Source of the DNA: a virus
Reading direction: 5' to 3' (one strand)
Length of the DNA: 64,000 bases
Virus record (IMG/VR): IMGVR_UViG_3300047558_000137
Span: 124,001 to 188,000 of that record
Shown in pieces: positions 3,862-62,921 of the stretch. Below the pieces are notes generated by a model that worked only from the letters and a program-made list of their open reading frames with translations, searched no databases and was not told the origin of the DNA. Positions within the stretch are counted from its first letter, which is position 1, and each line of letters begins with the position of its first letter. Made by a program: the position numbers and the translations under genes.

Positions 3862-4584
3862 ATGAATACTAAAATTTTTACGCTTCTAACAAAAAAATTG
3901 CATGAAGCCTTTAATTTACCCAAGTACTCTAACATAGTAATAGACGAAACAACTGTAGTGGATCAACTACCCTGGACGCCTGCAAGATACCGCAAGTTTA
4001 AAGATGCAGTAGAAGCAGAACTAAGTCTACCCTGCGACTATGTGGGAACACTTCGGGACATAACGCACGATCTAAGTGAGCGTTACATACACCGCTTCTT
4101 TGCGGAAATTTGGAAACCAAGGACAAATGACTATGACTACACTGGCTGGCAACTTGCCGACGAAATTAATGCGCTATCTCCTAGGTCCGTCCTGGACGTG
4201 GGGTGCGGCTATCACCCATTTAGAGGTCGGATATCTAATTTGGTCGGTATCGATCCTTACAACAACTGCGCTGATTATATGGTTGATATTTTGGATTATG
4301 TGGGTAGCCATGACGTCATCATCGCTTTGGGATCTATCAACTTTAATGACCGTGGTGAAATCGAATCTCGCTTTGCAAAATGTGTCGAACTACTAGATGT
4401 TGGTGGGCGTTTTTATCTACGTGCTAATCCTGGAATTACACACAAGACTGGGCCGTACGTAGAAATCTTTAATTGGACTTTTGAAGTTGTAAAAGAGTTA
4501 GGGGACAAGTACAATCTTAAACTAGAAACGTTTAAGAAGGATGCTAACGAAAGACTGTACTTTGTATATTCCAAGTTAGCCTAA
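3862..4584 (+). CDS. class I SAM-dependent methyltransferase
   Basis: Motif I 'RSVLDVGCGYHPF' and following 'LVGIDPY' give the SAM-binding strand-loop-helix and acidic residue. 'DVIIALGSINF' and 'LLDVGGRFYLRANPG' fit motifs IV to VI of the Rossmann-like class I fold. The N-terminal ~100 residues are not recognised. One of three genes on the plus strand. The start is uncertain: ATG 3862 is chosen because the alternative ATG at 3826 falls within an inverted repeat; neither has a clear ribosome-binding site. The substrate is unknown. Confidence 0.75.
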   Translation: MNTKIFTLLTKKLHEAFNLPKYSNIVIDETTVVDQLPWTPARYRKFKDAVEAELSLPCDYVGTLRDITHDLSERYIHRFFAEIWKPRTNDYDYTGWQLADEINALSPRSVLDVGCGYHPFRGRISNLVGIDPYNNCADYMVDILDYVGSHDVIIALGSINFNDRGEIESRFAKCVELLDVGGRFYLRANPGITHKTGPYVEIFNWTFEVVKELGDKYNLKLETFKKDANERLYFVYSKLA

Positions 4585-33724: not shown

Positions 33725-33753
33725 ATTATATATTTAATTGAATTTCTGGTCAA
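33725..33753 (-). promoter_or_regulatory. sigma-70 promoter, predicted leaderless
   Basis: TTGACC, 17-nt spacer, TATAAT, then TAAGCT and ATG 33718 on the minus strand. The -35 overlaps the stop codon of the last LRW-array gene. Confidence 0.75.
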
Positions 33754-34019
33754 GCCCATCGTAGGGCAAACGCTGTGGCGTCTGCTGGATGTTCAAAATA
33801 CCAATAGTTTTGCACCAATTTATAGTCGCCTGTTGCACTAATATGGACCCAGGCTGCAATTTCTACAATGGTATTTGTAATTTTATATCTTTCCATGCTG
33901 ACATTGGCCCTAGTCCATCCATCACCAATTAGTTTTTCTGCCATTATATTATCAATAATCTCTTGATCTATTTGGCGGGCTAAATGTGTCGAAGCCTCGT
34001 TGGCCCAATCATCTTTCAT
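33750..34019 (-). CDS. LRW-family protein, last of array (89 aa)
   Basis: Member of the LRW family (described at 43340..43522). Ends FALRWA but encodes it as CTA CGA TGG GCT, without the AGG-TGG Shine-Dalgarno found at most junctions; no gene follows directly. This suggests the peptide itself is under selection. Start ATG is set by the upstream RWA junction. Confidence 0.65.
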   Translation of the reverse strand: MKDDWANEASTHLARQIDQEIIDNIMAEKLIGDGWTRANVSMERYKITNTIVEIAAWVHISATGDYKLVQNYWYFEHPADATAFALRWA

Positions 34020-34267
34020 GCCCATTTCAGTACAAATGCAGTATAGTCTTGATCTTCATCAAAGTATACACGAATTCTATAACCTCGCTCTGTACTTTCG
34101 TAGGTAGCACCAACTTGCTCAAGTTCCTCATCTAGGATTCTTTCTAACATTCCAGGAGGTGCAGTTGGTGTGCCAATACGGCGTCGCCATACATCCGCAT
34201 ACCAACGCTCAAAGTAGTTCTTGGGCTTATTACAGTTGATGTTCTGATAATACTCTTTTACAATCAT
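34016..34267 (-). CDS. LRW-family protein (83 aa)
   Basis: N-terminal part is basic and aromatic (YYQNINCNKPKNYFERWYADVWRRR); C-terminus 'YFDEDQDYTAFVLKWA'. LKW is encoded with AAA, so the ribosome-binding site for the next gene is weak. ATGA overlap. Confidence 0.65.
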   Translation of the reverse strand: MIVKEYYQNINCNKPKNYFERWYADVWRRRIGTPTAPPGMLERILDEELEQVGATYESTERGYRIRVYFDEDQDYTAFVLKWA

Positions 34268-34515
34268 GCCCACCTCAACAAAAACATCGTAAACTTTTGT
34301 TCATCAATCACACGGTAATCTTTCATGTTGTAATCTTTGTCTAACTTTACTTCTACACCGTATTCGATCAACACATGATGAAGTTGTGCGTCATAAACAG
34401 GATTGCCTGTGACTACTTTTGCTTCTGGGAGAACTGACCAATAATGATTTGGTGACGGTTGTCCCATACTTTCCACAGCTCGTGCCAATATTAGTTGTAA
34501 GTCACAAGATTTCAT
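34264..34515 (-). CDS. LRW-family protein (83 aa)
   Basis: C-terminus 'VIDEQKFTMFLLRWA' with TGAGGTGGGCATGA at the junction. Middle region has 'VYDAQLHHVLIEYGVEV', a helix-turn resembling the WCxExFG helix of other members. Similar to 41106 (VVDEQKYLIFVLKY). Confidence 0.65.
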   Translation of the reverse strand: MKSCDLQLILARAVESMGQPSPNHYWSVLPEAKVVTGNPVYDAQLHHVLIEYGVEVKLDKDYNMKDYRVIDEQKFTMFLLRWA

Positions 34516-34943
34516 GCCCACCTCAACTTATAAAACACAAAATCTTTTTCGTCGCGAAAGTAGATTGCCCCGACCCCGCACCACCACCGACTCCACGCAT
34601 CTGGTTTGTTTGGATGTTTTCCGAAATGTTCTGTACACCATTTGATGATTTCGTTATACTCGCGGCCCAGGGGATAGATGCTATTGCTAATGTCAACAGT
34701 GTGCCATTTAGCCCGACTGAATTGGTATTTGGGTTTTGTAACAGGATGCATTGGTAAAAAGATTTCTTTACATAAGTTACTATCGTAGATTCTGTTTTTC
34801 AAAATCTTTGTGTACAAACTCTTACCAGTTTGACGGCCCACGCTGATTACATTTATTGTGCCAGCTGGGATACCACCAGCGGTATTACCTAACACAGTTG
34901 GCATCCATGTTTCAAGATCAACGGTGATTGTTTTATTTTTCAT
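34512..34943 (-). CDS. LRW-family protein with long N-terminal extension (143 aa)
   Basis: The longest array member. An extra N-terminal ~75 residues include 'GNTAGGIPAGTINVISVGRQTGKS', which looks like a Walker A loop (GRQTGKS) of a nucleotide-binding protein such as a helicase/packaging fragment. Then typical 'EIIKWCTEHFGKHP' and 'YFRDEKDFVFYKLRWA'. Looks like a fusion of a P-loop fragment to the family unit. Confidence 0.65.
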   Translation of the reverse strand: MKNKTITVDLETWMPTVLGNTAGGIPAGTINVISVGRQTGKSLYTKILKNRIYDSNLCKEIFLPMHPVTKPKYQFSRAKWHTVDISNSIYPLGREYNEIIKWCTEHFGKHPNKPDAWSRWWCGVGAIYFRDEKDFVFYKLRWA

Positions 34944-35224
34944 GACCACCTCAACAAAAATGCAGTAACTAACTTCTCATCGTAGAAGTAAATATAGCCG
35001 CCGCGATAGTCCCAGTCGCTGTGTTCTCCACCTGCTAGATCACTAAGTGGGTTACCGAGTTCCCACAGCCACCTATACAATCCATGTGGCCAATCGATTG
35101 GCGTGCGATAAGTTTCCCAGCGTTCTTGGGCAGGATTATAATCAAACCTCCACTCATTTTTAGCATGTTTGTGACGAATAGTAGCCAAAATTTTCTCCGC
35201 CGGTGTCAACGGTGCTAACATCAT
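34940..35224 (-). CDS. LRW-family protein (94 aa)
   Basis: Ends 'YFYDEKLVTAFLLRWS'. Trp-rich centre (GLYRWLWELGNPLSDL, WDYRGGY). Junction TGAGGTGGTCATGA supplies the next ribosome-binding site. Confidence 0.65.
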   Translation of the reverse strand: MMLAPLTPAEKILATIRHKHAKNEWRFDYNPAQERWETYRTPIDWPHGLYRWLWELGNPLSDLAGGEHSDWDYRGGYIYFYDEKLVTAFLLRWS

Positions 35225-35505
35225 GCCCACCTCATCAGGAACACTGCCTTATCACGCTCGTGCTTGAAGAAGATTGTTTCAAATCTCCAAATCCAATCGC
35301 GTCCAAAATGTTCTTCACACCACAGCATGATTTCTTCAAATGGTGCAGCACCATTATACTGCCAGTGAGAGAAATACTGACACACAATATTAACTGCGTT
35401 TGCGTCATTTGTATATAGGCAAGGAGTCTCTGCTACAAACTCCCGTAGACGTTCGCGGAGAGTGCTGTAAATCGAATCAACTTGCAGTGTGTTCTTTACT
35501 TTCAT
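35221..35505 (-). CDS. LRW-family protein (94 aa)
   Basis: A textbook member: helix 'FEEIMLWCEEHFGRDWIW', strand 'RFETIFFKHERDKAVFLMRWA'. Upstream helical part 'YSTLRERLREFVAETPCL'. GAGGTGG junction. Confidence 0.7.
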   Translation of the reverse strand: MKVKNTLQVDSIYSTLRERLREFVAETPCLYTNDANAVNIVCQYFSHWQYNGAAPFEEIMLWCEEHFGRDWIWRFETIFFKHERDKAVFLMRWA

Positions 35506-35732
35506 GACCACCTCAACATAAAAAGAGTTGCTTTTTCCTTGCTAGTAAATTGCCACCAGGTCCCGATATAATTGTGACATTCTCTCCAGCCTGCACATTT
35601 CTTTCCGTTGCCAAAAGTGTCCCGGCACCAATCAAACATGTTATCGTATCCGTTTCGATCTGCATGTTCAAAGTCTAAATGTACGTGCCATTGCCATTTT
35701 CTAGCATCTTTTCTACGTTGTTTTGAGTTCAT
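35502..35732 (-). CDS. LRW-family protein (76 aa)
   Basis: Contains 'NMFDWCRDTFGNGKKCAGW' and 'WWQFTSKEKATLFMLRWS'. Basic N-terminus. GAGGTGG junction. Confidence 0.7.
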   Translation of the reverse strand: MNSKQRRKDARKWQWHVHLDFEHADRNGYDNMFDWCRDTFGNGKKCAGWRECHNYIGTWWQFTSKEKATLFMLRWS

Positions 35733-35914
35733 GCCCACCTCAATAAAAATGCTGTTAAATCTTGTTCAGTCTTATAGACTATACCGGTTGCAAAAGCATC
35801 GTATTCAGGTCTGCTGTTACACCAGTCATAAATTTCATCCCACTCAGCCGCAGAGAAATGAAAACTAATACCAATGTAATTGTAGCGATGATCGATTGTA
35901 AACTTCTGAGTCAT
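35729..35914 (-). CDS. LRW-family protein, minimal (61 aa)
   Basis: One of the shortest members: 'WDEIYDWCNSRPEYDAFATG' then 'VYKTEQDLTAFLLRWA'. GAGGTGG junction. Shows the minimal unit needed. Confidence 0.65.
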   Translation of the reverse strand: MTQKFTIDHRYNYIGISFHFSAAEWDEIYDWCNSRPEYDAFATGIVYKTEQDLTAFLLRWA

Positions 35915-36108
35915 GCCCACACCAATGCAAATAACGTAGCGTCTACTTGACGCACAAACTTAAATGTGTAATCCCAGTCGTCTTTAAAGTAATCTGGCTT
36001 TGTGAAGTTCCAGTCCTTATGCTGAACCAAATTTTGATGCATTAGCCATGATAATATATCAGGAAGAACCTGATCACGTTTAATGCTAACACAAACATCG
36101 TAAGTCAT
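35911..36108 (-). CDS. LRW-family protein, LVW variant (65 aa)
   Basis: Ends 'FKFVRQVDATLFALVWA': Arg of LRW replaced by Val through GTG, which also breaks the GAGGTG site. Helix 'LPDILSWLMHQNLVQHKDW'. Confidence 0.6.
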   Translation of the reverse strand: MTYDVCVSIKRDQVLPDILSWLMHQNLVQHKDWNFTKPDYFKDDWDYTFKFVRQVDATLFALVWA

Positions 36109-36314
36109 GCCCACTTTAACCTAAACCACATGGCATCCTGCTCACGCTCAAACCAAACATAGCGACCAGCATAATACAGATAGAACTTACCAGGGCTGTC
36201 ATGCAGTTGCAGTTCACGCTTGAGATTTCGATCAAAACGATCATGCATATCGGAAACACTGACTTTGTGCCAGCGTAGTTGGCGAATCCGTTTATCTTTG
36301 TTCCAGTATTTCAT
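36105..36314 (-). CDS. LRW-family protein (69 aa)
   Basis: ATG 36314 is chosen from the TGAGGTGGTCATGA junction. Very basic N-terminus (MKYWNKDKRIRQLRWHKV), C-terminus 'YVWFEREQDAMWFRLKWA'. Confidence 0.65.
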   Translation of the reverse strand: MKYWNKDKRIRQLRWHKVSVSDMHDRFDRNLKRELQLHDSPGKFYLYYAGRYVWFEREQDAMWFRLKWA

Positions 36315-36631
36315 GACCACCTCAATGATAACCAAGTCAATAGTTCTTCGCTAATGATATAACGGTCCCAGAATCCGGGCCTTGTTGCTTTTAATTCACC
36401 ATGTTTCCACATGTATAGGGCTTGTTGCTCTATCCAGTGACTGACCTCTCTATTGACATCTACGACTACATACCCTTCGGGTACAGTTTCATTATGATTA
36501 GTAACCGTAACCCATTTGGGTGGTGTTAGATCCATAGGCTGTACACCCACAATATCTTGTGCTATTAACTTGGGAAGAATTTTCCTAATCATAGGAATCA
36601 TTATCATTGGATTTTTTAATGGGTCTGTCAT
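36311..36631 (-). CDS. LRW-family protein with N-terminal extension (106 aa)
   Basis: Extended N-terminal half (MIPMIRKILPKLIAQDIVGV...PEGYVVVDVNREV) then 'HWIEQQALYMWKHGELKA' and 'YIISEELLTWLSLRWS'. GAGGTGG junction. Confidence 0.6.
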   Translation of the reverse strand: MTDPLKNPMIMIPMIRKILPKLIAQDIVGVQPMDLTPPKWVTVTNHNETVPEGYVVVDVNREVSHWIEQQALYMWKHGELKATRPGFWDRYIISEELLTWLSLRWS

Positions 36632-36855
36632 GCCCACCTCAACAAAAATGCAGATGCCTTGGCATCATCATTGAACTTAAAAACCACAGCCCACTGATTG
36701 AACTCAAGATATTGCTCTTTAGTACCGGAACGTCGGTTAAATTTAGCAAAACTCCAATCCCATGTGCGAACATCGTTACCGAAAGTCTCAAAACACCAAG
36801 TCAGCTGTTGTGTCAATCCGACATCAGACTTTGCGTCCACGTTTACTTTAATCAT
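36628..36855 (-). CDS. LRW-family protein (75 aa)
   Basis: Clear family pattern 'QLTWCFETFGNDVRTWDWSF' and 'FKFNDDAKASAFLLRWA'. GAGGTGG junction. Confidence 0.7.
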   Translation of the reverse strand: MIKVNVDAKSDVGLTQQLTWCFETFGNDVRTWDWSFAKFNRRSGTKEQYLEFNQWAVVFKFNDDAKASAFLLRWA

Positions 36856-37103
36856 TGCCACCTCAACCTACATATTGTAGCATCTTTTTCATGCAAGAAC
36901 CAGACACTTCTCATAAACATTTTGTATGTGTGCGGGTCAAAAGTTTCCCGGCACCACGTGTTAATTGTTTCAAAATCGTGTTGCTTCCAGTTTAGTGCAG
37001 TCTCATACTCTGCACCTAAATGCCATCCAAACTCCGGGGCCTCGCAAGGAGTCATAGGAATCATAACCTTTTTACCGTCAATGTATGTCCACACTTCTGT
37101 CAT
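36852..37103 (-). CDS. LRW-family protein (83 aa)
   Basis: 'FETINTWCRETFDPHTYKMF' and 'VWFLHEKDATICRLRWQ'. The junction is AGG TGG CAA TGA. Gene begins ATG 37103 after a non-LRW (LKL) ending of the upstream member. Confidence 0.65.
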   Translation of the reverse strand: MTEVWTYIDGKKVMIPMTPCEAPEFGWHLGAEYETALNWKQHDFETINTWCRETFDPHTYKMFMRSVWFLHEKDATICRLRWQ

Positions 37104-37327
37104 AGCTTTAATAAAAACATTAGATAGTGTTGTTCATTGTGAAATGTCAAATAGTTGCGACCTTCTTTCCAGTTGTAGTATTGTCCAACATCGTATTTGT
37201 CATTGAGCCAGCGCCAAAGATTACTGTATCGTATTTGATCCTTAAGCCAGCTATCTTTAATCTGCTCGATATGAGCATCAATTGGAATCTTGTGTTTGAA
37301 CCAATGATTAAACAGATGTACTTTCAT
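37100..37327 (-). CDS. LRW-family protein, degenerate C-terminus (75 aa)
   Basis: 'LWRWLNDKYDVGQYYNWKEG' and 'TFHNEQHYLMFLLKL': the final Trp is lost. No Shine-Dalgarno in the tail. Basic N-terminus. Confidence 0.6.
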   Translation of the reverse strand: MKVHLFNHWFKHKIPIDAHIEQIKDSWLKDQIRYSNLWRWLNDKYDVGQYYNWKEGRNYLTFHNEQHYLMFLLKL

Positions 37328-37569
37328 GACCACCTCAATACAAATGCTGTATGACTAGATTCATTGTCCCAACGTAAATACCATCCTTGTGTTTTTGTTG
37401 CAACAAACCGCCCGCCAACGGGACGAAGCTCATGGTTCATTACTGTACCCGGATCCCACCCATTGGCACGAGCAATAGTCTGACAATGTTTAAAAAAGTT
37501 ATCAAAATACTTGGGCCATGCATCTTCCCAATAACCTTTAGTAACATGTACTATAAACTTGTCAGACAT
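37324..37569 (-). CDS. LRW-family protein (81 aa)
   Basis: ATG 37569 follows TAA of the upstream gene (ATAATG), the only TAA at a GAGGTGG junction I see. Ends 'YLRWDNESSHTAFVLRWS', with an additional LRW at the strand before. Confidence 0.6.
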   Translation of the reverse strand: MSDKFIVHVTKGYWEDAWPKYFDNFFKHCQTIARANGWDPGTVMNHELRPVGGRFVATKTQGWYLRWDNESSHTAFVLRWS

Positions 37570-37787
37570 TATGCCCACCTCAACATAAACATAACATAAT
37601 CACGTTCATCTTCAAAATAAAACACCGGCGATTCTTGATCTTCTTCTACGGCATGCCACTTAGTTAATGCCTGCGTGATTACATCACCGTTCTGCATATC
37701 GAGTCCTTGTGCTGTATGGTACTCGTAGAAGTTGCGCCACCAGTTGGTCCACACGCCACGCTCATTAATCACATTTACTTCAATCAT
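37569..37787 (-). CDS. LRW-family protein (72 aa)
   Basis: Ends 'VFYFEDERDYVMFMLRWA' with junction GAGGTGGGCATAATG. Middle contains 'WTNWWRNFYEYHTAQG'. Confidence 0.65.
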   Translation of the reverse strand: MIEVNVINERGVWTNWWRNFYEYHTAQGLDMQNGDVITQALTKWHAVEEDQESPVFYFEDERDYVMFMLRWA

Positions 37788-37981
37788 AGCCATTTTAATG
37801 CAAACATTGATGCATCAGCTTCATCTCGGAAATAAAATCCAGTATTCCCAAATGACGATTCCCAGGACCAACGATCTTGATCTTTACGATGCCAGACTGC
37901 GTAACCAAAATGTCGGATACACCAGGCTCGGATGATATCTATTTCGTGATAGCGATCCTTACCTAATACAAACTCAGTCAT
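37784..37981 (-). CDS. LRW-family protein (65 aa)
   Basis: Contains 'IIRAWCIRHFGYAVWHRKDQD' and 'FYFRDEADASMFALKWL'; LKW uses TTA AAA TGG so no embedded ribosome-binding site. Confidence 0.7.
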   Translation of the reverse strand: MTEFVLGKDRYHEIDIIRAWCIRHFGYAVWHRKDQDRWSWESSFGNTGFYFRDEADASMFALKWL

Positions 37982-38274
37982 TGCCATCTCAGACTAAACA
38001 TCATGGCATCAGCTTCACGACGGAAGATAAAGACCAAATCGCTTTCTTCATCATCGCTAGCATCAACGTGCTGTATAACACCTTCAGCTTCTTGCTCAGT
38101 GGTAAGCTCAGGAACCTGCTCTACACGTTCTTCGTAATAGAACCAGTCCTCGATGCCCATCCAGGTGTTTTTAACAAAGCGGCGCGAACCAAGACCAATA
38201 CTGGCTCGGCACCATTCTTCGATTTCCACGAGCTTGTCGTGGTGCTTACGGTCTAGTTTGATAGTGGTTGTCAT
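37978..38274 (-). CDS. LRW-family protein with acidic insert (98 aa), start of second subarray
   Basis: 'LVEIEEWCRASIGLGSRRFV', 'TWMGIEDWFYYEE', a Glu/Asp-rich linker, then 'FIFRREADAMMFSLRWQ'. I recall similar single-copy proteins in other T4-like phages, so this may be closest to the ancestral form. Has its own extended -10 promoter 6 nt before ATG. Confidence 0.7.
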   Translation of the reverse strand: MTTTIKLDRKHHDKLVEIEEWCRASIGLGSRRFVKNTWMGIEDWFYYEERVEQVPELTTEQEAEGVIQHVDASDDEESDLVFIFRREADAMMFSLRWQ

Positions 38275-38280
38275 AGCTGT

Positions 38281-38286
38281 ATTATA
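38281..38286 (-). promoter_or_regulatory. extended -10 promoter inside the LRW array, predicted leaderless
   Basis: TGCTATAAT-ACAGCT-ATG 38274, preceded by AGTACTTTAGTACTAC. Divides the array into two transcription units. Confidence 0.65.
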
Positions 38287-38322
38287 GCATTTTTTGAATT
38301 TACAAAAAGTAGTACTAAAGTA

Positions 38323-38568
38323 CTAGGAAAACTTTAGCTTCCAGAGCAGGTATAACTCTGGCGTTAGATACAAGGCTACATTGCTTTCGGGCTCAGAGTC
38401 CATTGGCTTCCAGTACTCAGCATCTTGGCTGCGTATCCATTCAAACATGCCTGCGGGAGTTACAATGGATTCAAACTCTGGATCGTCGTAACAACTTGTT
38501 TTACCTTTGTAGCTAAACAGTTCATACTGTCCATTACGTGGCAAAAATTGTTTGTAAGTTACAGCCAT
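38323..38568 (-). CDS. LRW-family protein, LKF variant ending in TAG (81 aa)
   Basis: Start at ATG 38568, overlapping the upstream stop. Ends 'ALYLTPELYLLWKLKFS' then TAG, one of the few amber stops. Readthrough would add 16 codons and then meet ATG 38274 of the next member in frame. Confidence 0.55.
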   Translation of the reverse strand: MAVTYKQFLPRNGQYELFSYKGKTSCYDDPEFESIVTPAGMFEWIRSQDAEYWKPMDSEPESNVALYLTPELYLLWKLKFS

Positions 38569-38747
38569 TTCAAATTGAACCATTCAATATGTGATTGTAC
38601 CATAAAACTATATCCTTCAGGTCCCGAAGATACATGCATATGGGCAACATCATTTTCTAACAGCCAGAGGACCATTTCAAGCCACTCTGGCGTTGTGCCT
38701 ATAGTATAGCAGTTTGGACCGTATCCGTATTTTTTAGTTAGTTTCAC
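38559..38747 (-). CDS. LRW-family protein (62 aa)
   Basis: GTG start at 38747. 'WLEMVLWLLENDVAHMHVSSG' and 'SFMVQSHIEWFNLKWL'. Overlaps the upstream gene by 14 nt. Confidence 0.55.
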   Translation of the reverse strand: MKLTKKYGYGPNCYTIGTTPEWLEMVLWLLENDVAHMHVSSGPEGYSFMVQSHIEWFNLKWL

Positions 38748-38934
38748 GACTGCCCCATTTTAACTTATACCAGGTATAAACATCTTCATCCATGTAGAGA
38801 TTCTCAAGACCATAGTCATACTCTGTGCCCCAACGACTGCTGTTCTCTGGACCAAAGTTTAAACCTAGCCAATGCCTAACATCCTGCTTTAGTTTCCAGT
38901 CCCAGTGTTCGATAACTATGCCATGTTGCTTCAT
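38734..38934 (-). CDS. LRW-family protein with C-terminal extension (66 aa)
   Basis: 'DVRHWLGLNFGPENSSRWG' and 'YMDEDVYTWYKLKWGSRETN': eight residues extend past LKW, crossing into the next gene. Confidence 0.55.
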   Translation of the reverse strand: MKQHGIVIEHWDWKLKQDVRHWLGLNFGPENSSRWGTEYDYGLENLYMDEDVYTWYKLKWGSRETN

Positions 38935-39191
38935 AACCATTTCAACTTTATCAAGGTCAACAAATCTTCACGCACAATGTAGATAGCACGATGACGGCCA
39001 CCATAGCTACGCCACGTTGTTGTGTCTTGTTCTTCAATCCAATCACCAAACCAGTAGCTACATTGTATACGATACCATACATATCCATCAGGTTCTTTAT
39101 AGCCGTACTCGCAACCAGGCTCAACTTGATAGAGTCTGCTACTGTATCCTTCTGGTGGGTGTTTGGTATGAAACCACTCCTCGTAACTCAT
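38931..39191 (-). CDS. LRW-family protein (86 aa)
   Basis: Ends 'AIYIVREDLLTLIKLKWL'; centre 'FGDWIEEQDTTTWRSYGGRH'. ATG 39191. Confidence 0.6.
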   Translation of the reverse strand: MSYEEWFHTKHPPEGYSSRLYQVEPGCEYGYKEPDGYVWYRIQCSYWFGDWIEEQDTTTWRSYGGRHRAIYIVREDLLTLIKLKWL

Positions 39192-39403
39192 GCAAATCTC
39201 AACAAAAAATAAGTTAAATCTTCTTGGCTTTTCAACTCGACGTAATTCTTGGTAGAATCACTAACAAACACACCTTGGCGCCAACGACGATTATCCCTGT
39301 CTTCTTGGATCCAATTTACAATGCTCCAATGTATGGGCGTGTCGAATGGAATTTGATAAGCAAACCCATCATATAGCTGTTTGTTGAGATTGAAATACCT
39401 CAT
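39188..39403 (-). CDS. LRW-family protein, LRF variant (71 aa)
   Basis: 'HWSIVNWIQEDRDNRRWRQG' and 'ELKSQEDLTYFLLRFA'. The LRF codons do not give an AGGTGG site. Confidence 0.6.
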   Translation of the reverse strand: MRYFNLNKQLYDGFAYQIPFDTPIHWSIVNWIQEDRDNRRWRQGVFVSDSTKNYVELKSQEDLTYFLLRFA

Positions 39404-39612
39404 GACCACCTCAAAGCAAATAACACAGCATCCTGCTCAGATCTAAAATGCCACACAGTTTGGTCCCGGCGAAACATAGCACCCCTATAATCGTCCTGAC
39501 AATTTTGTTCGCACCATACAAACCTTTGATCCTTGCCCCAGACCCAACCACCCGAATGTGGAACTTCCACTCGATGACGGAGATCTCGATTGCGACTGTA
39601 TTTTGATTTCAT
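39400..39612 (-). CDS. LRW-family protein (70 aa)
   Basis: Basic N-terminus (KSKYSRNRDLRHRVEV), 'FVWCEQNCQDDYRGAMF', 'WHFRSEQDAVLFALRWS'. GAGGTGG junction. Confidence 0.65.
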   Translation of the reverse strand: MKSKYSRNRDLRHRVEVPHSGGWVWGKDQRFVWCEQNCQDDYRGAMFRRDQTVWHFRSEQDAVLFALRWS

Positions 39613-39869
39613 GACCACCTCAGCGCAAACATCATAGCATCTTGATCACATTCAAACTCAATGAACTTTTCTTTGAGATATCCGGGACTGTGATAGTAAG
39701 GATGTTGGCAGTTGTCTTCGAGCCATTGATTAACTAGATAATCTTTGTAGCTAATCTGCCATTGCTTTGGTACACCGTCAAAAGTATGGCCATAGACAAC
39801 ACGGTGCAACTTGGGCACCTTGAGAGTTTTTCCAATACCAAACTTTGTGTCTATGTAAGTTATTGCCAT
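39609..39869 (-). CDS. LRW-family protein (86 aa)
   Basis: 'YLVNQWLEDNCQHPYYHSPG' and 'FIEFECDQDAMMFALRWS'. GAGGTGG junction; ATG 39869 overlaps the upstream stop by 10 nt. Confidence 0.65.
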   Translation of the reverse strand: MAITYIDTKFGIGKTLKVPKLHRVVYGHTFDGVPKQWQISYKDYLVNQWLEDNCQHPYYHSPGYLKEKFIEFECDQDAMMFALRWS

Positions 39870-40132
39870 CTTAGTACAAACAGTGTTAAATCCGCTTCGT
39901 TACGAAACCAAAACTTGGCGCTGTTGGCATACCAACGAGCTGATGGAGTCCATACACCGTCTTCTGGAGTAGGACCAAATGTATCGAAACACCATTTTAG
40001 CATATCATTCCAATATTGATTATACCATCCGTGCCCTGAACCAAATTCAAATACTGGTGCAACAGTGTAATAACGTGCTCCATAAACGCGGCCTTCATTT
40101 ACAGTAAGCGTCACGCCTCCATTATGTGCCAT
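39860..40132 (-). CDS. LRW-family protein (90 aa)
   Basis: 'YWNDMLKWCFDTFGPTPEDG' and 'FWFRNEADLTLFVLRWQ'. The start may be downstream of 40132 because the first codons overlap the coiled-coil gene. Confidence 0.65.
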   Translation of the reverse strand: MAHNGGVTLTVNEGRVYGARYYTVAPVFEFGSGHGWYNQYWNDMLKWCFDTFGPTPEDGVWTPSARWYANSAKFWFRNEADLTLFVLRWQ

Positions 40133-40461
40133 ACATTGATCTTTTCTTCTAGATCACGATTTTTCTTTGCAATCAAGTCACGTTCTTCACGTGCAACTTT
40201 TGCAATGCGTTCTGCGCTTTCAGTTCGACGCACTAGTTCAGCAGCCATATCTTCAATGGTACGTGCTTCTAGCATTTTAATTTCGTAACGTGCTTCTTTA
40301 AGCTGTCGTTCGGCATAGTCAACATCATTCTTTAGATGATCTATTTCATCTTCAAGATCAATAACTTTATTGTCATTGAGAATTATTTCGCACAGACGGC
40401 GAACAACAGGATCGTCTGTATAACGAAGATGGTAGTCGGCAAATTCTTTATCGGTTCTCAC
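40111..40461 (-). CDS. coiled-coil protein inside LRW array (116 aa)
   Basis: GTG start at 40461 (GTGA with the upstream stop, GGAG 7 nt before). After 'RTDKEFADYHLRYTDDP' there is a long charged coiled coil (DLEDEIDHLKNDVDYAERQL). Not an LRW member; interrupts the array. Confidence 0.6.
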   Translation of the reverse strand: MRTDKEFADYHLRYTDDPVVRRLCEIILNDNKVIDLEDEIDHLKNDVDYAERQLKEARYEIKMLEARTIEDMAAELVRRTESAERIAKVAREERDLIAKKNRDLEEKINVWHIMEA

Positions 40462-40724
40462 GAGTGTGCTCCAAACTTTAATGCAAACATTATAGCAGCT
40501 TCTTCCCATTCAAATTGAAAGGTAGCATAATCAGTGCCCCAAATATTTTGATTGTCGTTTCCGTTACGCCAATCAATATAGTAGCGTTTAAAATAAGGTT
40601 TGTCGCCAGTAGCATATTCATTGCACCATTCCATCATGGCAGTAATATCTGCTTTACGACTTACACGCACCTTATATATAAAGTCTGGGTTACTGCGACC
40701 GCCCTCGCTGTAAAATAATTCCAT
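40458..40724 (-). CDS. LRW-family protein, LKF variant (88 aa)
   Basis: 'ITAMMEWCNEYATGDKPYFK' and 'FQFEWEEAAIMFALKFGAHS'. The Shine-Dalgarno GGAG of the next (GTG) gene lies in the codons for F-G-A. Confidence 0.6.
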   Translation of the reverse strand: MELFYSEGGRSNPDFIYKVRVSRKADITAMMEWCNEYATGDKPYFKRYYIDWRNGNDNQNIWGTDYATFQFEWEEAAIMFALKFGAHS

Positions 40725-40728
40725 AATA

Positions 40729-41109
40729 CTATTTCTCTGTTAAGGCACGAATTGTTTCGTATCGTTTAATTGCTTCTTCGACATCTTTCCATGCATCTTT
40801 TACAGCAGGATGAACGTCATTGTAACTATGATCTTGCGGATTATAACCGGGTCGAATTTTTATACTAGGTGGATCTTGCTTAACCCAGCCCTGAGGATCT
40901 GCGTCAGTCCAATAATAAACAATAGCAGAATTGCCCAAGGTAGAGCTTGAGTAGTCACGCCACTCATCTTTACGCTTGTCGTACCATAGATAACCATGGT
41001 CGCTGTCGCCGTCGCCTTTACCGCCCATGCCCCAACCGCGGTAGCAGAGATAGTAGTCGCTCTTACTAGGCTGACGTTCTTCTACTCTATACCAAATGCT
41101 TGTTCTCAT
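40729..41109 (-). CDS. DUF551-like protein, TAG stop (126 aa)
   Basis: 'WYRVEERQPSKSDYYLCYRGWG' and 'IVYYWTDADPQGW' resemble the DUF551 pattern (WxxvxdrlP...YW). Ends in TAG. Not an LRW member. Confidence 0.55.
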   Translation of the reverse strand: MRTSIWYRVEERQPSKSDYYLCYRGWGMGGKGDGDSDHGYLWYDKRKDEWRDYSSSTLGNSAIVYYWTDADPQGWVKQDPPSIKIRPGYNPQDHSYNDVHPAVKDAWKDVEEAIKRYETIRALTEK

Positions 41110-41342
41110 GTTGCATATTTTAACACAAATATCAAATATTTTTGCTCGTCAACAACTTCAAGTGTATCACGCAGGTTAAAATCATCCTCGGCCACAGTTA
41201 ATTTAATACCATAGTTTACATTTAGCCAGCGTACAAAATCCTGTGTGCTGGGCTCATAATATCCAGTAAAAGTGGTGTCATACTCTTTTTTGGCTGCACG
41301 TAAGAGCATGAATAACTCTTGCCAGGTTGGAGTGTTAGTCAT
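41106..41342 (-). CDS. LRW-family protein, LKY variant (78 aa)
   Basis: 'TQDFVRWLNVNYGIKLTVAE' and 'EVVDEQKYLIFVLKYAT'; similar to 34264. ATGA overlap with the next gene. Confidence 0.6.
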   Translation of the reverse strand: MTNTPTWQELFMLLRAAKKEYDTTFTGYYEPSTQDFVRWLNVNYGIKLTVAEDDFNLRDTLEVVDEQKYLIFVLKYAT

Positions 41343-41556
41343 CTTTTAGTATATCAAATAATTCAGCGTATTCAACTTCGGGCTCCATGTGAAACCCGTT
41401 CCCCCATACCGCCCAAAAACGTTGTTTATATACAGTCTTTAACCAAACATATCTCCCGCCAATTGTTTTAACTGGCCAAATGGCAAAGGTCCGGCGCCAT
41501 GGATAGCAGTCGGCGCCATTGTATATGCGTTGGGTTATCAACATGTTATTCTTCAT
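41335..41556 (-). CDS. conserved phage protein inside array (73 aa)
   Basis: 'YPWRRTFAIWPVKTIGGRYVWLKTVYKQRFW' and 'GFHMEPEVEYAELFDIL' match a recognisable T4-like phage protein. Not an LRW member. Confidence 0.65.
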   Translation of the reverse strand: MKNNMLITQRIYNGADCYPWRRTFAIWPVKTIGGRYVWLKTVYKQRFWAVWGNGFHMEPEVEYAELFDILKDD

Positions 41557-41782
41557 TTTTCTGGATACAATTTAGAAACAAAAATGTAGTAAACGATTCA
41601 GTGTAAAGATCTCTGCGGATATAGATAGTATGACCTTGAGTAAACCAAGGGCGTTCGATGAACTTTTGGTAAGGATCATTATCGCCGTAGGCCTTACGCA
41701 GGCTGTCAATTACAGGCACCCAGTCTTGAGCTTTAAATTTTAAGTTAAAGTGTGTTTTTTTATAATGATTAAAATAACTCAT
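41546..41782 (-). CDS. probable LRW-family derivative with lost motif (78 aa)
   Basis: Starts at a GAGGTGG junction, but the C-terminus reads 'TESFTTFLFLNCIQKNEE' instead of FLLRW, as if frameshifted or decayed. Basic N-terminus. Confidence 0.5.
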   Translation of the reverse strand: MSYFNHYKKTHFNLKFKAQDWVPVIDSLRKAYGDNDPYQKFIERPWFTQGHTIYIRRDLYTESFTTFLFLNCIQKNEE

Positions 41783-41988
41783 GACCACCTCAGTGCAAAC
41801 ATTGCGGCATCTTGTTCTAGTGCAAAGTAGTATACACGATTATCAGTAAACGGATGGTCTACCCCATCAAACTCATAGTTATAATCCGATACATTGTCCA
41901 ACAACCAAATACGCAGGTCCCTAAAGTGTCCAGTACTACGCCATGGCACACTGACTGGAATTGTACACCAATATTTTACAGGTCTCAT
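41779..41988 (-). CDS. LRW-family protein (69 aa)
   Basis: 'HFRDLRIWLLDNVSDYNYEF' and 'VYYFALEQDAAMFALRWS'. GAGGTGG junction. Confidence 0.7.
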   Translation of the reverse strand: MRPVKYWCTIPVSVPWRSTGHFRDLRIWLLDNVSDYNYEFDGVDHPFTDNRVYYFALEQDAAMFALRWS

Positions 41989-42212
41989 GCCCACCTCAAC
42001 ACAAACTCTGTAGCATCTTTTTCATTGTAAAAAAAGTAGTCGTGCCCGCCGGGTACACTAAAGATTGCATACAGGTTACGAATATGTTCAGTTTCGAAAA
42101 ATTCAAAATAACTGTGGTCATTTCGAAGGTCCAACACTTTCGAATGATCAAAGTGTATGCAGGTCCATCCTGCATTTTTAAAATCTTGATGACTTTGTGA
42201 GATCTGTGTCAT
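41985..42212 (-). CDS. LRW-family protein (75 aa)
   Basis: Lacks the WC helix; 'VLDLRNDHSYFEFFETEHI' replaces it. Ends 'FFYNEKDATEFVLRWA'. GAGGTGG junction. Confidence 0.65.
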   Translation of the reverse strand: MTQISQSHQDFKNAGWTCIHFDHSKVLDLRNDHSYFEFFETEHIRNLYAIFSVPGGHDYFFYNEKDATEFVLRWA

Positions 42213-42439
42213 GCCCACCTCAACACAAACATCATGTGATCGTCTGCACGCCTAAACTCAAACACCCCTTCGCCAACAAAGCGCCAGTTGCCATCTTTGA
42301 TTTGTTCAGCACACCATGTAATACAAGGAGTCCAACCTTGATAGTATGTGTTAACAATACCGCTGCCAATTGAATTAGGACCAGGTGCCGGCACACTTGC
42401 TACAATCCAACCATTGAGTTCATTTCGTGGAAGTTTCAT
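42209..42439 (-). CDS. LRW-family protein (76 aa)
   Basis: 'WTPCITWCAEQIKDGNWRFV' and 'FEFRRADDHMMFVLRWA'. GAGGTGG junction. Confidence 0.7.
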   Translation of the reverse strand: MKLPRNELNGWIVASVPAPGPNSIGSGIVNTYYQGWTPCITWCAEQIKDGNWRFVGEGVFEFRRADDHMMFVLRWA

Positions 42440-42657
42440 AACCATCTCAAACTAAACAAGGTTGCATCTTCGCCACGCTTGAATGCAAAGTAAGGGCCAA
42501 CGTTGCGCCACTCACTGCTCTTAAAGTTTTCGTAACACCAGCGTTCTTTGGCACCAGTATCATCTTTGACTTCTACATGGTACGGCCAATATTTCTTGTT
42601 TAAAACTCTCATAAGGTGCATCTCATTTCGTTTCTGTGTGTAGTAACTTAACTCCAT
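42436..42657 (-). CDS. LRW-family protein (73 aa)
   Basis: 'TGAKERWCYENFKSSEWRNV' and 'YFAFKRGEDATLFSLRWL'. LRW encoded with AGA. ATG 42657 from the upstream AAATGGAG junction. Confidence 0.65.
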   Translation of the reverse strand: MELSYYTQKRNEMHLMRVLNKKYWPYHVEVKDDTGAKERWCYENFKSSEWRNVGPYFAFKRGEDATLFSLRWL

Positions 42658-42878
42658 TTTAACACAAATTCCATTAAAGTTATATCATCGGCAAATAATA
42701 CAGTCATACCTTCTGATATTACTGTGTCTCTAGCATCGCACCAATCAGCAAATGCGTCGATATTATCTGCCCAAAATTTATAATCTGTCAGAATGACTAG
42801 TCGCTCGTCTGTATCCAATAATTCACTTGGAGCAATAATAAAACGGTGATGCCGCCACTCTTCAAATATATCTGTCAT
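42648..42878 (-). CDS. LRW-family protein (76 aa)
   Basis: 'NIDAFADWCDARDTVISEGM' and 'LFADDITLMEFVLKWS'. Longer N-terminal part with 'DERLVILTDY'. Confidence 0.6.
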   Translation of the reverse strand: MTDIFEEWRHHRFIIAPSELLDTDERLVILTDYKFWADNIDAFADWCDARDTVISEGMTVLFADDITLMEFVLKWS

Positions 42879-43114
42879 AGATATTTGATCCTAAAGAATG
42901 TTTCTGCAGCCTCATCGTAGAAGTCTAAGCAGATCATTTCTCTATGTTGATGGCGGCCATCTGTATCGGTGACCCAGTCTTGGTGGTAGCGTGTAGTGAA
43001 TCCAAGTTCGCGCCGCATAACTTCGCGAATCATAAAGACGCTGGGCTTGGTCTTATATTCTTCTTTAATTCGTTTGCGTATGCGTGTCCATTCACGCTCA
43101 TTTAAGGATATCAT
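42875..43114 (-). CDS. LRW-family protein, IKY variant (79 aa)
   Basis: Basic helical N-terminus (WTRIRKRIKEEYKTKPSVFM) and 'ICLDFYDEAAETFFRIKYL'. Distant member. Confidence 0.55.
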   Translation of the reverse strand: MISLNEREWTRIRKRIKEEYKTKPSVFMIREVMRRELGFTTRYHQDWVTDTDGRHQHREMICLDFYDEAAETFFRIKYL

Positions 43115-43349
43115 ACTTTAACTTAAACCAAGTTGCATCAGATTCAGTTAGTGTTGCTACAATTTTGTACCTATAACTGTAGGTTGTATTATCTAAGTGC
43201 AGGGCCCAGTAAGGTTCTTCAACGGCATTTTCCATTACCCACTTACCAGCGTCAGTCTGTTGCCATTCCCAAATTGGTTGGGCAGCATATATTTCTGGGT
43301 CGTCTACATCGCCCATGCTGAAGGTGTGAACTATTAATTTTACCGCCAT
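43098..43349 (-). CDS. LRW-family protein, LKY variant with tail (83 aa)
   Basis: 'WEWQQTDAGKWVMENAVEEP' and 'IVATLTESDATWFKLKYDILK'. Overlaps the next gene by 17 nt. Confidence 0.6.
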   Translation of the reverse strand: MAVKLIVHTFSMGDVDDPEIYAAQPIWEWQQTDAGKWVMENAVEEPYWALHLDNTTYSYRYKIVATLTESDATWFKLKYDILK

Positions 43350-49243: not shown

Positions 49244-49471
49244 TTACGTTAATGCTTTAAAAGAGCCTACTAGATAGATTACAACCACAACTAGTTCTAC
49301 TATGATTAGGCTCCATTTCTTCCATATAAATCCTAACCAGAGCCATAATAGATTGGCAGCTAGACAGACAAATATATTAATAGGATAATAGTTAAAACTT
49401 GTTAACCAAACACCCAACAACAGTATTAGTGTAGCTGACCATTCTACTATAAACTCTAGGTTAAATTTCAT
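49244..49471 (-). CDS. small membrane protein between AhpC and AhpD (75 aa)
   Basis: Two to three hydrophobic segments ('SATLILLLGVWLTSFNYYPINIF', 'LAANLLWLWLGFIW', 'LIIVELVVVVIYLVG'). ATG overlaps the ahpC stop (TAATG). Confidence 0.6.
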   Translation of the reverse strand: MKFNLEFIVEWSATLILLLGVWLTSFNYYPINIFVCLAANLLWLWLGFIWKKWSLIIVELVVVVIYLVGSFKALT

Positions 49472-50016
49472 TAAAGTGTTTCACCACCGATTGGGCGTGA
49501 GCATGGGCACAACTCGCCAGTTTGCAATGCATCTAATACACGCAATGCTTCGTCTGGGTTACGGCCAACATCCAAGTTGTTTACTGTAACGTGTTGGATG
49601 ATGTTGTCTGGGTCAACAATAAATGTTGCACGTAGTGCGGCACCTGCTGGACCATAGAAGATACCCAATTGCTCGGCCAAGCTGTTTTCGTCGCGAGCTA
49701 CGTCAGCAAATGACCAGCTGTTAGTTTTCTTCAAGTCTTCGTGTGCGTTACGCCAAGCCAACTTGCAGAACTCATTGTCTGTTGAGCCGATTAGCAATAC
49801 TGCATCACGGTCAGCAAAGTCCGAATTCAACTTGTCGTAGGCTACGATTTCAGTTGGACATACAAAAGTAAAGTCCTTTGGATAATAAACGATTACTTTC
49901 CATTTACCTTCAAAGCTCTTGTCTGTGATGGTTTCAAATGCGCCGTCTGGTGTCAATGCGCCTGGCTTAACGCCTGTTACTGCAAAACTTGTGATTTTGT
50001 CGCCGATAGTTTTCAT
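49471..50016 (-). CDS. ahpC: AhpC-type 2-Cys peroxiredoxin
   Basis: A 181-residue peroxiredoxin. Peroxidatic Cys is in 'DFTFVCPTEIVAYDKL', the conserved Arg in 'LRATFIVDPDNIIQH', and a C-terminal resolving Cys in 'TGELCPCSRP'. Reduces hydrogen peroxide and organic peroxides. Phage-borne AhpC is unusual; with AhpD it forms a likely accessory metabolic module. Confidence 0.93.
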   Translation of the reverse strand: MKTIGDKITSFAVTGVKPGALTPDGAFETITDKSFEGKWKVIVYYPKDFTFVCPTEIVAYDKLNSDFADRDAVLLIGSTDNEFCKLAWRNAHEDLKKTNSWSFADVARDENSLAEQLGIFYGPAGAALRATFIVDPDNIIQHVTVNNLDVGRNPDEALRVLDALQTGELCPCSRPIGGETL

Positions 50017-51510: not shown

Positions 51511-52077
51511 TTAATCATCGATGTCCTCATAATATTCTTCGTCCTCATAAATGTAGTCTTTGTTATCATAGTCCTGATAATAGGCTTCATTTGGTGCAAG
51601 GATTCGGAATTGTCCTGCGTACTTTAATGCAGCCATAGTAAGATCGTATTCTTCTCGGATATCGCAGATAGCCCATCTGCTACCACACGACCCGATAACT
51701 TCTTTCAGCTTACTGTGTTTAAATTCATTATCTTTAAGGGCTCGGTGAATACCAGACCCTTGACTTAAAATAATACGCCCAGCTCGCTGTTCGGGATGTT
51801 TGAGCCATGCATCCATAATACCCAACGAACTAATCGTGGCATTATTGTCTGGATCAATGGTTAACTTACACTTCTTGAATTTGATACTACCCTTGGTCTT
51901 TTCATTACCAGGAGTTTCCTTGGTGCTCCAAGGCATATCTGAGGTTACGTGATTGACGTAGAACGTGACGCCATGTGCTTTTACAACCCACATTGGTATG
52001 GTTGGATCTGCCAAGTGTCCTTTGTTAAAGTGAAACACTAGGTCTTTACATTTGTATTCAATCTATTTTTGTGACAT
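51511..52077 (-). CDS. conserved phage protein with in-frame amber at codon 5
   Basis: A strong AAGGAG site precedes ATG 52077. Translation reads M-S-Q-K then TAG (52065-52063), and continues in frame as IEYKCKDLVFHFNKGHL... to TAA 51511 (189 codons including stop). A GTG further in (52038) could restart but has no ribosome-binding site. The sequence 'IEYKCKDLVFHFNKGHLADP' is what I expect at the N-terminus of a conserved phage protein, with the amber probably at a CAG (Gln). An amber-suppressor tRNA lies just upstream. Acidic, Tyr/Asp-rich C-terminus. Confidence 0.75.
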
Positions 52078-52103
52078 GCTGTTCTCCTTGGTTATGTCAA
52101 TAA

Positions 52104-52111
52104 TATTTATA
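52104..52111 (-). promoter_or_regulatory. T4-late-like promoter TATAAATA
   Basis: TATAAATA between the tRNA 3' end and the amber-containing gene, followed by AAGGAG and ATG 52077. Confidence 0.6.
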
Positions 52112-52113
52112 AA

Positions 52114-52189
52114 TGGTGCGCTAGACGGGACTCGAACCCGTACATGGGAGTTTTAGAGGCTCCTGCTCTAACCTTTTAGCTACTAGCGC
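52114..52189 (-). tRNA. tRNA with anticodon CUA (amber suppressor), CCA encoded
   Basis: A 76-nt cloverleaf: acceptor GCGCTAG/CTAGCGC, discriminator A, encoded CCA, D arm with G18G19, T arm ACGGG-TTCGAGT-CCCGT, 5-nt variable loop. The anticodon loop is C-T-CTA-A-A in a GGAGC/ACTCC stem, with a C31-A39 mismatch. With T33 fixed, the anticodon reads CUA, pairing with UAG. Short variable loop and A73 argue against Tyr, Ser or Leu identity. An Arg-UCU ancestry with a shifted loop is possible. Confidence 0.75.
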
Positions 52190-62124: not shown

Positions 62125-62146
62125 TGGATATATGTATTTGAATAGT

Positions 62147-62466
62147 GGTAGCTTATTCTGTTACGAGGAAAGCTACCGAAACCCTAGGCGGCGTTTAGGC
62201 TACCAATGCGAACTGTGAGTCGTTTGCGTTTACTTTTTTGCTTCTACGGCCGGGAAACCCCAACCCTAAGGGCTTTCACATTGCCCTGCTGTCCACTCTG
62301 TTACTCTTGACCCAATCGATCCTGTGTCAGGCCCATTATAAAACACACTAAGCACGACTACATTGCCAAAAAGACCTGGAAGTCAAAAACAATGTACATA
62401 ATGTGTTTTATGGTGGACCTGGGCGGCACTGCCCCGCCGTCTTGAATCCTTTTCTCTTTGCTTCAT
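62147..62466 (-). ncRNA. ssrA: permuted two-piece tmRNA (ssrA), tag ANDSQFALVA
   Basis: On the minus strand the acceptor piece comes first: T arm GGCGG-GGCAGTG-CCGCC, then CAGGTCC-A-CCA (62421-62411). A 76-nt intervening loop with pairing TAAAACACA/TGTGTTTTA and ACATTG/CAATGT follows. The coding piece starts GGGCCTG at 62334, which pairs with CAGGTCC, including the G3-U70 alanine identity pair. The tag reads GCA AAC GAC TCA CAG TTC GCA TTG GTA GCC TAA (62227-62195). The non-standard T loop is like that of two-piece tmRNAs. The 3' end at hairpin 62147-62177 is approximate. Confidence 0.9.
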
Positions 62467-62477
62467 ACAGCAATAAC

Positions 62478-62921
62478 TTAATACTCTTCTACTTTAACAA
62501 TCTTTGCGGCAGTTGTCAAATATTCCCACACACTTTCATTGTAGTGTGGCTTACCTGCCCAATAGTTTTCTGCCGCTGATTTAACTTCAGCACTGTCAAT
62601 TGCATGTCCGTCACCGATTAACATACTTACTTCACTGCCCCAGTTTAGATCGTGACGTTGCACAGGACCTTCTGGGACTACAGTAAATAACCAATCAGTT
62701 GCACCACCAGCTAAATCTACATCATCTGGATCGCTACACATAAAAACACTTTGCTTATGTGATAGCATGTTTTGTGGACGATACATTTCCAATGGACGAT
62801 AAAAGTCCGTATGCCCCCAATTGGCCTCATAGTTGTTGCGTGGGGTTAGAACTGTACCTACTGGTAATTCTGTGGAACTGCCGTGGTAAAATGTTGGACT
62901 AGTAATCTCTGTAATACGCAT
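62478..62921 (-). CDS. possible ADP-ribosyltransferase-like phage protein (147 aa)
   Basis: 'TFYHGSSTELPVGTVLTPRNNY' resembles the YHGT...L.vGd.L.P start of Arr-type ADP-ribosyltransferases; 'VFMCSDPDDVDLAGGATDWLF' and 'GPVQRHDLNWGSEV' could be the following strands. Assignment is tentative. TATAAA lies 6 nt before ATG, no ribosome-binding site. Confidence 0.5.
   Translation of the reverse strand: MRITEITSPTFYHGSSTELPVGTVLTPRNNYEANWGHTDFYRPLEMYRPQNMLSHKQSVFMCSDPDDVDLAGGATDWLFTVVPEGPVQRHDLNWGSEVSMLIGDGHAIDSAEVKSAAENYWAGKPHYNESVWEYLTTAAKIVKVEEY

Follow-up and report, generated by a model that had tools for sequence, protein, structure and literature searches.

The window analyzed here, a stretch of 64,000 nucleotides, spans positions 124001-188000 of a virus record that is 374,314 bases long (IMGVR_UViG_3300047558_000137; genome G000). 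The genome itself was examined as sampled stretches, which amount to 224 kb of its 374 kb. On the minus strand of the window, a tRNA gene with the anticodon CUA is followed by the motif TATAAATA, an AAGGAG Shine-Dalgarno (SD) sequence, an ATG start codon, an in-frame TAG at codon 5, a further 183 codons, and a TAA stop codon. We refer to the gene that contains the early amber codon as gene X. The features of this locus are as follows.

52114..52189, minus strand: putative amber-suppressor tRNA gene, anticodon CUA (52154-52156), 76 nt, CCA encoded (ARAGORN; Rfam RF00005, 60.3 bits; stems kept across 63 unique relatives)
52104..52111, minus strand: TATAAATA, T4-type late-promoter-like motif (from sequence)
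52084..52089, minus strand: Shine-Dalgarno AAGGAG (from sequence; 37 of the 39 non-redundant homologues also have an SD)
52075..52077, minus strand: start codon ATG of X (SD spacing; ATG lies 2-6 codons ahead of the amber codon in non-redundant relatives)
52063..52065, minus strand: in-frame amber TAG, codon 5, next codon ATT (conserved in 39 non-redundant homologues)
51511..52077, minus strand: gene X, predicted to be amber-gated, 187 sense codons plus the amber codon (ORF reading; homologues)
51838..52062, minus strand: N-terminal domain of X, conserved and rich in beta structure, not assigned to any named Pfam or PHROG family
51514..51837, minus strand: C-terminal portion of X, for which the order beta-alpha-beta-beta-alpha-beta and a disordered acidic tail are predicted (pLDDT 84.7)
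51511-51513, minus strand: stop codon TAA of X
62144..62523, minus strand: permuted (two-piece) tmRNA gene, functional context (Rfam RF04321, 102 bits; RF01849, 57.5 bits)

An earlier note on this DNA, prepared without database searches, had described a 76-nt CCA-ending tRNA with anticodon CUA, located 36 nt upstream of a gene with an SD sequence, an ATG, and TAG as codon 5, and had placed a late promoter between them. Each of these elements is present, including TATAAATA between the tRNA and the gene, and the gap from the tRNA to the ATG on the same strand is exactly 36 nt. The note had counted 184 codons after the amber codon, where the actual number is 183. Elsewhere in the window, the minus strand at 49471-50016 encodes a peroxiredoxin (AhpC)-like protein, as judged on sequence alone, and positions 33750-43349 hold a long series of small (60-100 aa) head-to-tail ORFs, the majority on the minus strand and many of them overlapping at their ends.

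When the 224 kb of sampled genome were searched for an SD sequence and ATG followed by at most 15 codons, a stop codon, and at least 60 further codons, gene X was the only convincing case. Because the candidates for this early-stop pattern number three for TAG, two for TAA, and two for TGA, an isolated case would be weak evidence, and it is conservation that settles the question. A first scan recovered 13 relatives of X at 49-83% identity, and each of the 12 whose 5' end is intact has the order SD, ATG, 1-4 codons, TAG, ATT. A profile scan then found 394 relatives, 80 of which were kept, and 79 of these 80 carry an ATG, a few codons, and an in-frame TAG. Many contigs in the comparison are fragments and some are redundant. 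A non-redundant set of 39 genes at <85% identity was assembled from the profile-scan relatives and a further locus set. In this set, the amber codon is codon 3 (29 genes), codon 4 (5), codon 5 (4), or codon 7 (1), and the base after TAG is always a purine (A in 35 and G in 4).

The codons that follow the amber codon are under selection in the frame of X. Over the nine codons that come directly behind TAG, the in-frame pN/pS is 0.38 versus 1.41 and 1.84 in the shifted frames, and therefore the post-TAG codons are translated. The genes themselves end in TAA (57) or TGA (35) and never in TAG (0 of 92). The criterion for programmed readthrough, which combines a conserved stop codon, an SD sequence and ATG before it, and coding selection after it, is fulfilled for X, with the readthrough product itself being inferred. 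A start at the internal GTG 52038, which the earlier note had named as an observation that would refute its proposal, can be ruled out because homologues do not retain this GTG and because conserved residues precede it. Its expectation of Gln or Lys at the TAG position in homologues failed, since neither was found there and nearly all homologues keep the TAG. Amber-less X genes (L037, L138, and an L148-type clade) have a Met start at the amber position (L037) or a short Met leader. At L108 (about 4000-4500), the in-frame amber codon has shifted from the N terminus of X to the junction of its two halves, with a CUA tRNA 1.1 kb upstream, and only the C-terminal half of X is predicted to be gated there.

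Searches of Pfam and PHROGs with X found no family, the best match in a PDB sequence search (E 0.076) is not meaningful, and a Foldseek search of the PDB with the X model returned nothing at E <= 0.001. In BFVD, Foldseek identified one close homologue (57% identity) and two further weak matches, over ~80 residues, to phage proteins without known function. The C-terminal part is absent from short forms of X. A scan of bacterial and archaeal genomes found no X relatives, and at the DNA level the window region had no match among phages.

ARAGORN identified one tRNA in the window, with the anticodon CTA at position 34. The earlier note had proposed such a structure scan and would have been contradicted by any other anticodon. 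The tRNA has a complete cloverleaf with anticodon CUA and so fulfills the structural criterion for an amber suppressor, whereas activity on UAG in the cell is inferred. Its acceptor arms are GCGCTAG and CTAGCGC, with A73, G1-C72, C2-G71, and G3-C70, and these same identities are near-invariant in the main type of CUA tRNA. Across 76 unique CUA tRNAs, the stems are kept via compensating changes. Among 63 suppressor tRNAs that encode their CCA end, most have a mismatch or wobble (C-A, A-C, C-C, or U-G) as the last anticodon-stem pair (31-39), while pairing is retained at most other stem positions. With 25 CUA tRNAs as the basis of a covariance model, further examples that ARAGORN had overlooked were detected. 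A CUA tRNA was located for 30 of the 39 non-redundant X loci, as judged from the DNA examined at each locus. Of these, 29 lie upstream of X on the same strand at distances of 85-2556 nt, and one lies downstream.

Where X lacks its amber codon, a gene for a PTH2-type peptidyl-tRNA hydrolase lies upstream in the same operon and itself opens with ATG, 1-3 codons, and TAG. The identification rests on Pfam PF01981, to which the tested members score 24.9-30.6 bits against a cut-off of 23. One locus (L109) has amber codons in both X and PTH2, and another (L037) carries a CUA tRNA and an ungated X together with a gated PTH2. When every early-stop ORF in the loci was tallied, only two amber families recurred, X (59 representatives) and PTH2 (15), and equivalent tallies for TAA and TGA yielded no comparable family. 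Of 77 loci recovered from IMG/VR by a PTH2 profile scan, 75 have ATG, a few codons, and TAG; one of the remaining two begins at a contig end, and the script could not read the other. The gated copies of PTH2 belong to divergent subfamilies, one of which is a fusion to an HD domain. Canonical second copies without an early stop codon occur in XacN1, CM1, Atu_ph07, Phosso, and LR756500, and likewise in G011. In those phages checked that have only a canonical PTH2 (Magneto, RpAliso, SCTP-2, Munch, and Pound), no CUA tRNA was seen among the best matches. PTH2 shares an operon with X and can bear the stop codon in its place, but the gated copies are divergent and the canonical copies have no stop. 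Canonical PTH2 has GK residues close to its active site; these are present in the Atu_ph07 and Phosso copies and absent in a Bacteroidota-like clade, according to a reading of the alignment only. Because these residues are missing in that clade, hydrolase activity of the amber-type PTH2 is not assured, and its chemistry may be altered.

The same pairing is found in cultured phages. RHph_I1_18 carries an unannotated 82-codon X with an amber codon at codon 6 (ATG AGT GAG TTC ATG TAG) and a CUA tRNA 11 nt beyond the X stop codon. In Phosso, the amber codon is codon 4 of PTH2, upstream of the annotated start, and the CUA tRNA is distant from the gene, about 270 kb further along the record. The PTH2 of pT24 has its amber codon at codon 3 and a CUA tRNA about 2.5 kb upstream. 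CM1 and XacN1 encode HD-domain-PTH2 fusions with an amber codon at codon 3, and each has CUA tRNAs. These fusion genes, which lie at about 243.7-244.6 kb of AP018399.1 and about 70.4-71.3 kb of OP883945.1, open with ATG AAG TAG. We found no XacN1-type HD fusion in IMG/VR. The authors who described XacN1 reported its CUA tRNAs and sought targets but found none (PMC5852040); the HD-domain-PTH2 fusion genes are candidates for these targets. Atu_ph07 has a PTH2 with TGA at codon 7 and a UCA (opal) suppressor tRNA >200 kb from the gene. This tRNA was reported by the authors of that study, who named no target gene (PMC6102473). The stop codon and the anticodon have changed together here (UAG/CUA versus UGA/UCA), an inference from one phage only. 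A search of IMG/VR for Atu_ph07-type PTH2 recovered only Atu_ph07 itself, which leaves the opal case unreplicated. Ochre tRNAs were also noted, in that UUA tRNAs lie at L289 16364-16439 (phiM19) and L235 740-812 (Lak-A2), and no early-TAA gene was found in 19 kb around the phiM19 tRNA. Finally, RTG-TAG-GTG precedes the PTH2 gene of the mycobacteriophages Alice, Phabba, and ScoobyDoobyDoo, and a CUA tRNA follows that gene at a distance of no more than about 300 nt. We regard this case only as a lead to the same putative switch, since the second GTG could also be the start codon. In the mycobacteriophage PTH2 loci L230, L231, and L234, promoter spacing could fit a leaderless mRNA.

Perhaps the ATG, the few codons, and the TAG instead form a minigene, where translation terminates at UAG and reinitiates just downstream, at a non-AUG codon or an internal start, without any suppression. 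Termination followed by reinitiation is known, and the ATT that often follows TAG in X, the GTG or TTG codons inside some X genes, and the GTG start immediately after the amber codon in mycobacteriophages would suit such a process. However, the codon after TAG varies (ATT, ATC, ATA, ACT, GTA, GTC, AAA, and GTT in X; also CTT, AGC, AAC, and ACA in PTH2), and most PTH2 loci have no ATG, GTG, or TTG between TAG and the first conserved strand. Furthermore, the leader remains short and in frame, and the link to a suppressor tRNA is left unexplained by reinitiation, which we consider very improbable.

The TAG could also be read by leaky readthrough or by a host suppressor, with the phage CUA tRNA being a mere bystander of tRNA clusters. 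UAG followed by a purine is a suppressible context, and at some loci a CUA tRNA is lacking within reach. In the DNA examined, none was seen for 9 of the 39 X loci, most of which are short contig ends or tRNA-rich loci, nor for 19 of 45 non-redundant PTH2 loci, nor in the sampled stretches of LR745206. Nevertheless, 113 tRNAs of the first locus set had their anticodon called, and 72 of these are CUA, whereas the next commonest type has 11 members. The tRNA of the window is the sole CUA tRNA found in the 224 kb sampled, and it stands alone, >120 kb from the cluster at roughly 299-317 kb that holds the other tRNAs. The pairing of TGA with UCA in Atu_ph07 also argues against a bystander, and we give this alternative only a slender chance.

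Another possibility is that the stop codon encodes a specific amino acid whose chemistry is needed, as with selenocysteine or pyrrolysine. The position is roughly constant and ARAGORN labels the tRNA 'Pyl', but this label rests on the anticodon alone. Amber-less X proteins have Met at that position or a short Met leader instead, one lineage uses TGA, and the acceptor ends of the suppressor tRNAs differ in the Bacteroidota-like clade. Because of these differing acceptor ends, it is probable that not all phages insert the same amino acid, with the charged residue remaining undetermined. A requirement for one particular residue appears similarly remote.

Least tenable, and scarcely conceivable in our judgment, is a recoded genome (table 15) in which X is one of many genes that contain TAG: code-15 phages typically encode suppressor tRNAs (PMC11210395) and the PTH2 of the 735-kb phage LR756501, which may be recoded, has a further internal TAG, but in-frame TAGs proved not to be widespread in this genome, and recurrent early amber codons occur in X and PTH2 only. 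Among ORFs of at least 100 aa in the 224 kb, 14 of 226 (6%) end in TAG and readthrough rarely lengthens them, while in relatives of this genome 8% of ORFs end in TAG, mostly without abnormal extension. Because only 6-8% of ORFs end in TAG, this genome and its relatives are not recoded, and TAG is an ordinary stop codon.

We therefore favor a suppressor-gated switch. The central claim of the earlier note, that X depends on the neighboring suppressor, is strongly supported by comparison, given the conserved amber codon, the coding selection after it, the linked CUA tRNA, and the shift of the amber codon to PTH2. In the absence of protein, ribosome-profiling, or expression data, we hold with high confidence that expression of X would depend on the phage tRNA. 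The whole explanation, in which a suppressor gates genes that deal with peptidyl-tRNA or rescue ribosomes, has had no bench test, and we judge it to be probable. The phage CUA tRNA would compete with release factor 1 to read the UAG at codon 5 of X. If the suppressor were lacking, translation of X or PTH2 would be halted by release factor after a few codons, and in its presence the product would be made. The proposed module, which is widespread and recurs in many phages that are not related to one another, consists of a stop codon a few codons into PTH2, X, or both, together with a suppressor of matching anticodon, in a genome that otherwise uses the standard code where this was tested.

The purpose of such a switch can only be inferred. 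In a version based on timing, the tRNA would accumulate first and X or PTH2 would be made late. This reading is helped by late-promoter motifs like TATAAATA, which are over-represented upstream of X; the exact motif precedes the X ATG in 6 of 38 homologues versus about 0.9% in shuffles. There is no direct evidence on timing, and we consider plain late timing possible but clearly short of an even chance. In a version based on rescue, suppression would drive ribosomes past ordinary UAG stops, so that ribosomes stall and peptidyl-tRNAs build up. Peptidyl-tRNA is what PTH2 acts on, and an amber codon in a rescue gene could sense readthrough and supply the remedy in proportion. Rescue on demand or feedback suits the gene content at least as well as timing, and readthrough-coupled rescue or feedback has, in our estimation, about an even chance of being the purpose. 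The permuted tmRNA lies about 10 kb from X in the window, and many of the other phages have one too; a permuted tmRNA is near X in about 30 relatives' loci. It is also found in Phosso, in RHph_I1_18, and, as a weak match, in XacN1. Tags of tmRNAs near X in relatives include ANDTRFALAA. PTH2 was not found in the genome that carries the window, and therefore X is tied to rescue through the genes that share its operon in other phages and through the nearness of tmRNA.

Parts of this proposal have parallels in known systems. In Streptomyces, the bldA tRNA (tRNA-Leu UUA) controls development and gates the few genes that carry its rare codon. The likeness is that one tRNA gates few genes, but bldA reads a sense codon, whereas here a stop codon and release-factor competition are involved. 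The prfB gene for RF2 regulates itself through an early in-frame stop codon that reports termination efficiency, and it shares this early stop with the genes described here but responds by +1 frameshifting rather than through a suppressor tRNA. Stop-codon-recoded phages (code 15 crAss-like and Lak) are reportedly the subject of work by Borges in 2022. In code-15 crAss-like and Lak phages, as in those described here, a phage CUA suppressor reads in-frame TAG, with proposed control of gene timing (PMC11210395). However, TAG lies across many genes of code-15 phages, whereas X/PTH2 phages keep TAG as a stop codon and have one or two conserved early-stop targets. The CUA tRNAs of XacN1 (PMC5852040) and the UCA tRNA of Atu_ph07 (PMC6102473) are of the same tRNA class in standard-code jumbo phages. 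Those papers name no target, and here a matching early-stop PTH2 is present in both (the XacN1 ORF364 region and the Atu_ph07 gp256 region). No earlier report of an early-stop gene paired with a suppressor tRNA was found in the literature searched.

These findings predict that genes with an N-terminal stop codon are systematically mis-annotated. X is missing from the annotation of RHph_I1_18, and the annotated PTH2 starts are internal in Phosso, Atu_ph07, pT24, and XacN1. More broadly, a stop codon and its matching suppressor may constitute a termination sensor in phages of very different hosts, such that readthrough would induce peptidyl-tRNA and rescue genes and be self-adjusting alongside tmRNA, with the stop-anticodon pair swappable as a unit. 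We offer this generalization tentatively, as somewhat less than an even prospect. The proposed switch nonetheless offers an answer to the purpose of suppressor tRNAs in standard-code phages, whose targets were unidentified in the XacN1 and Atu_ph07 papers, and it would represent a natural nonsense-gated switch that is testable in laboratory phages.
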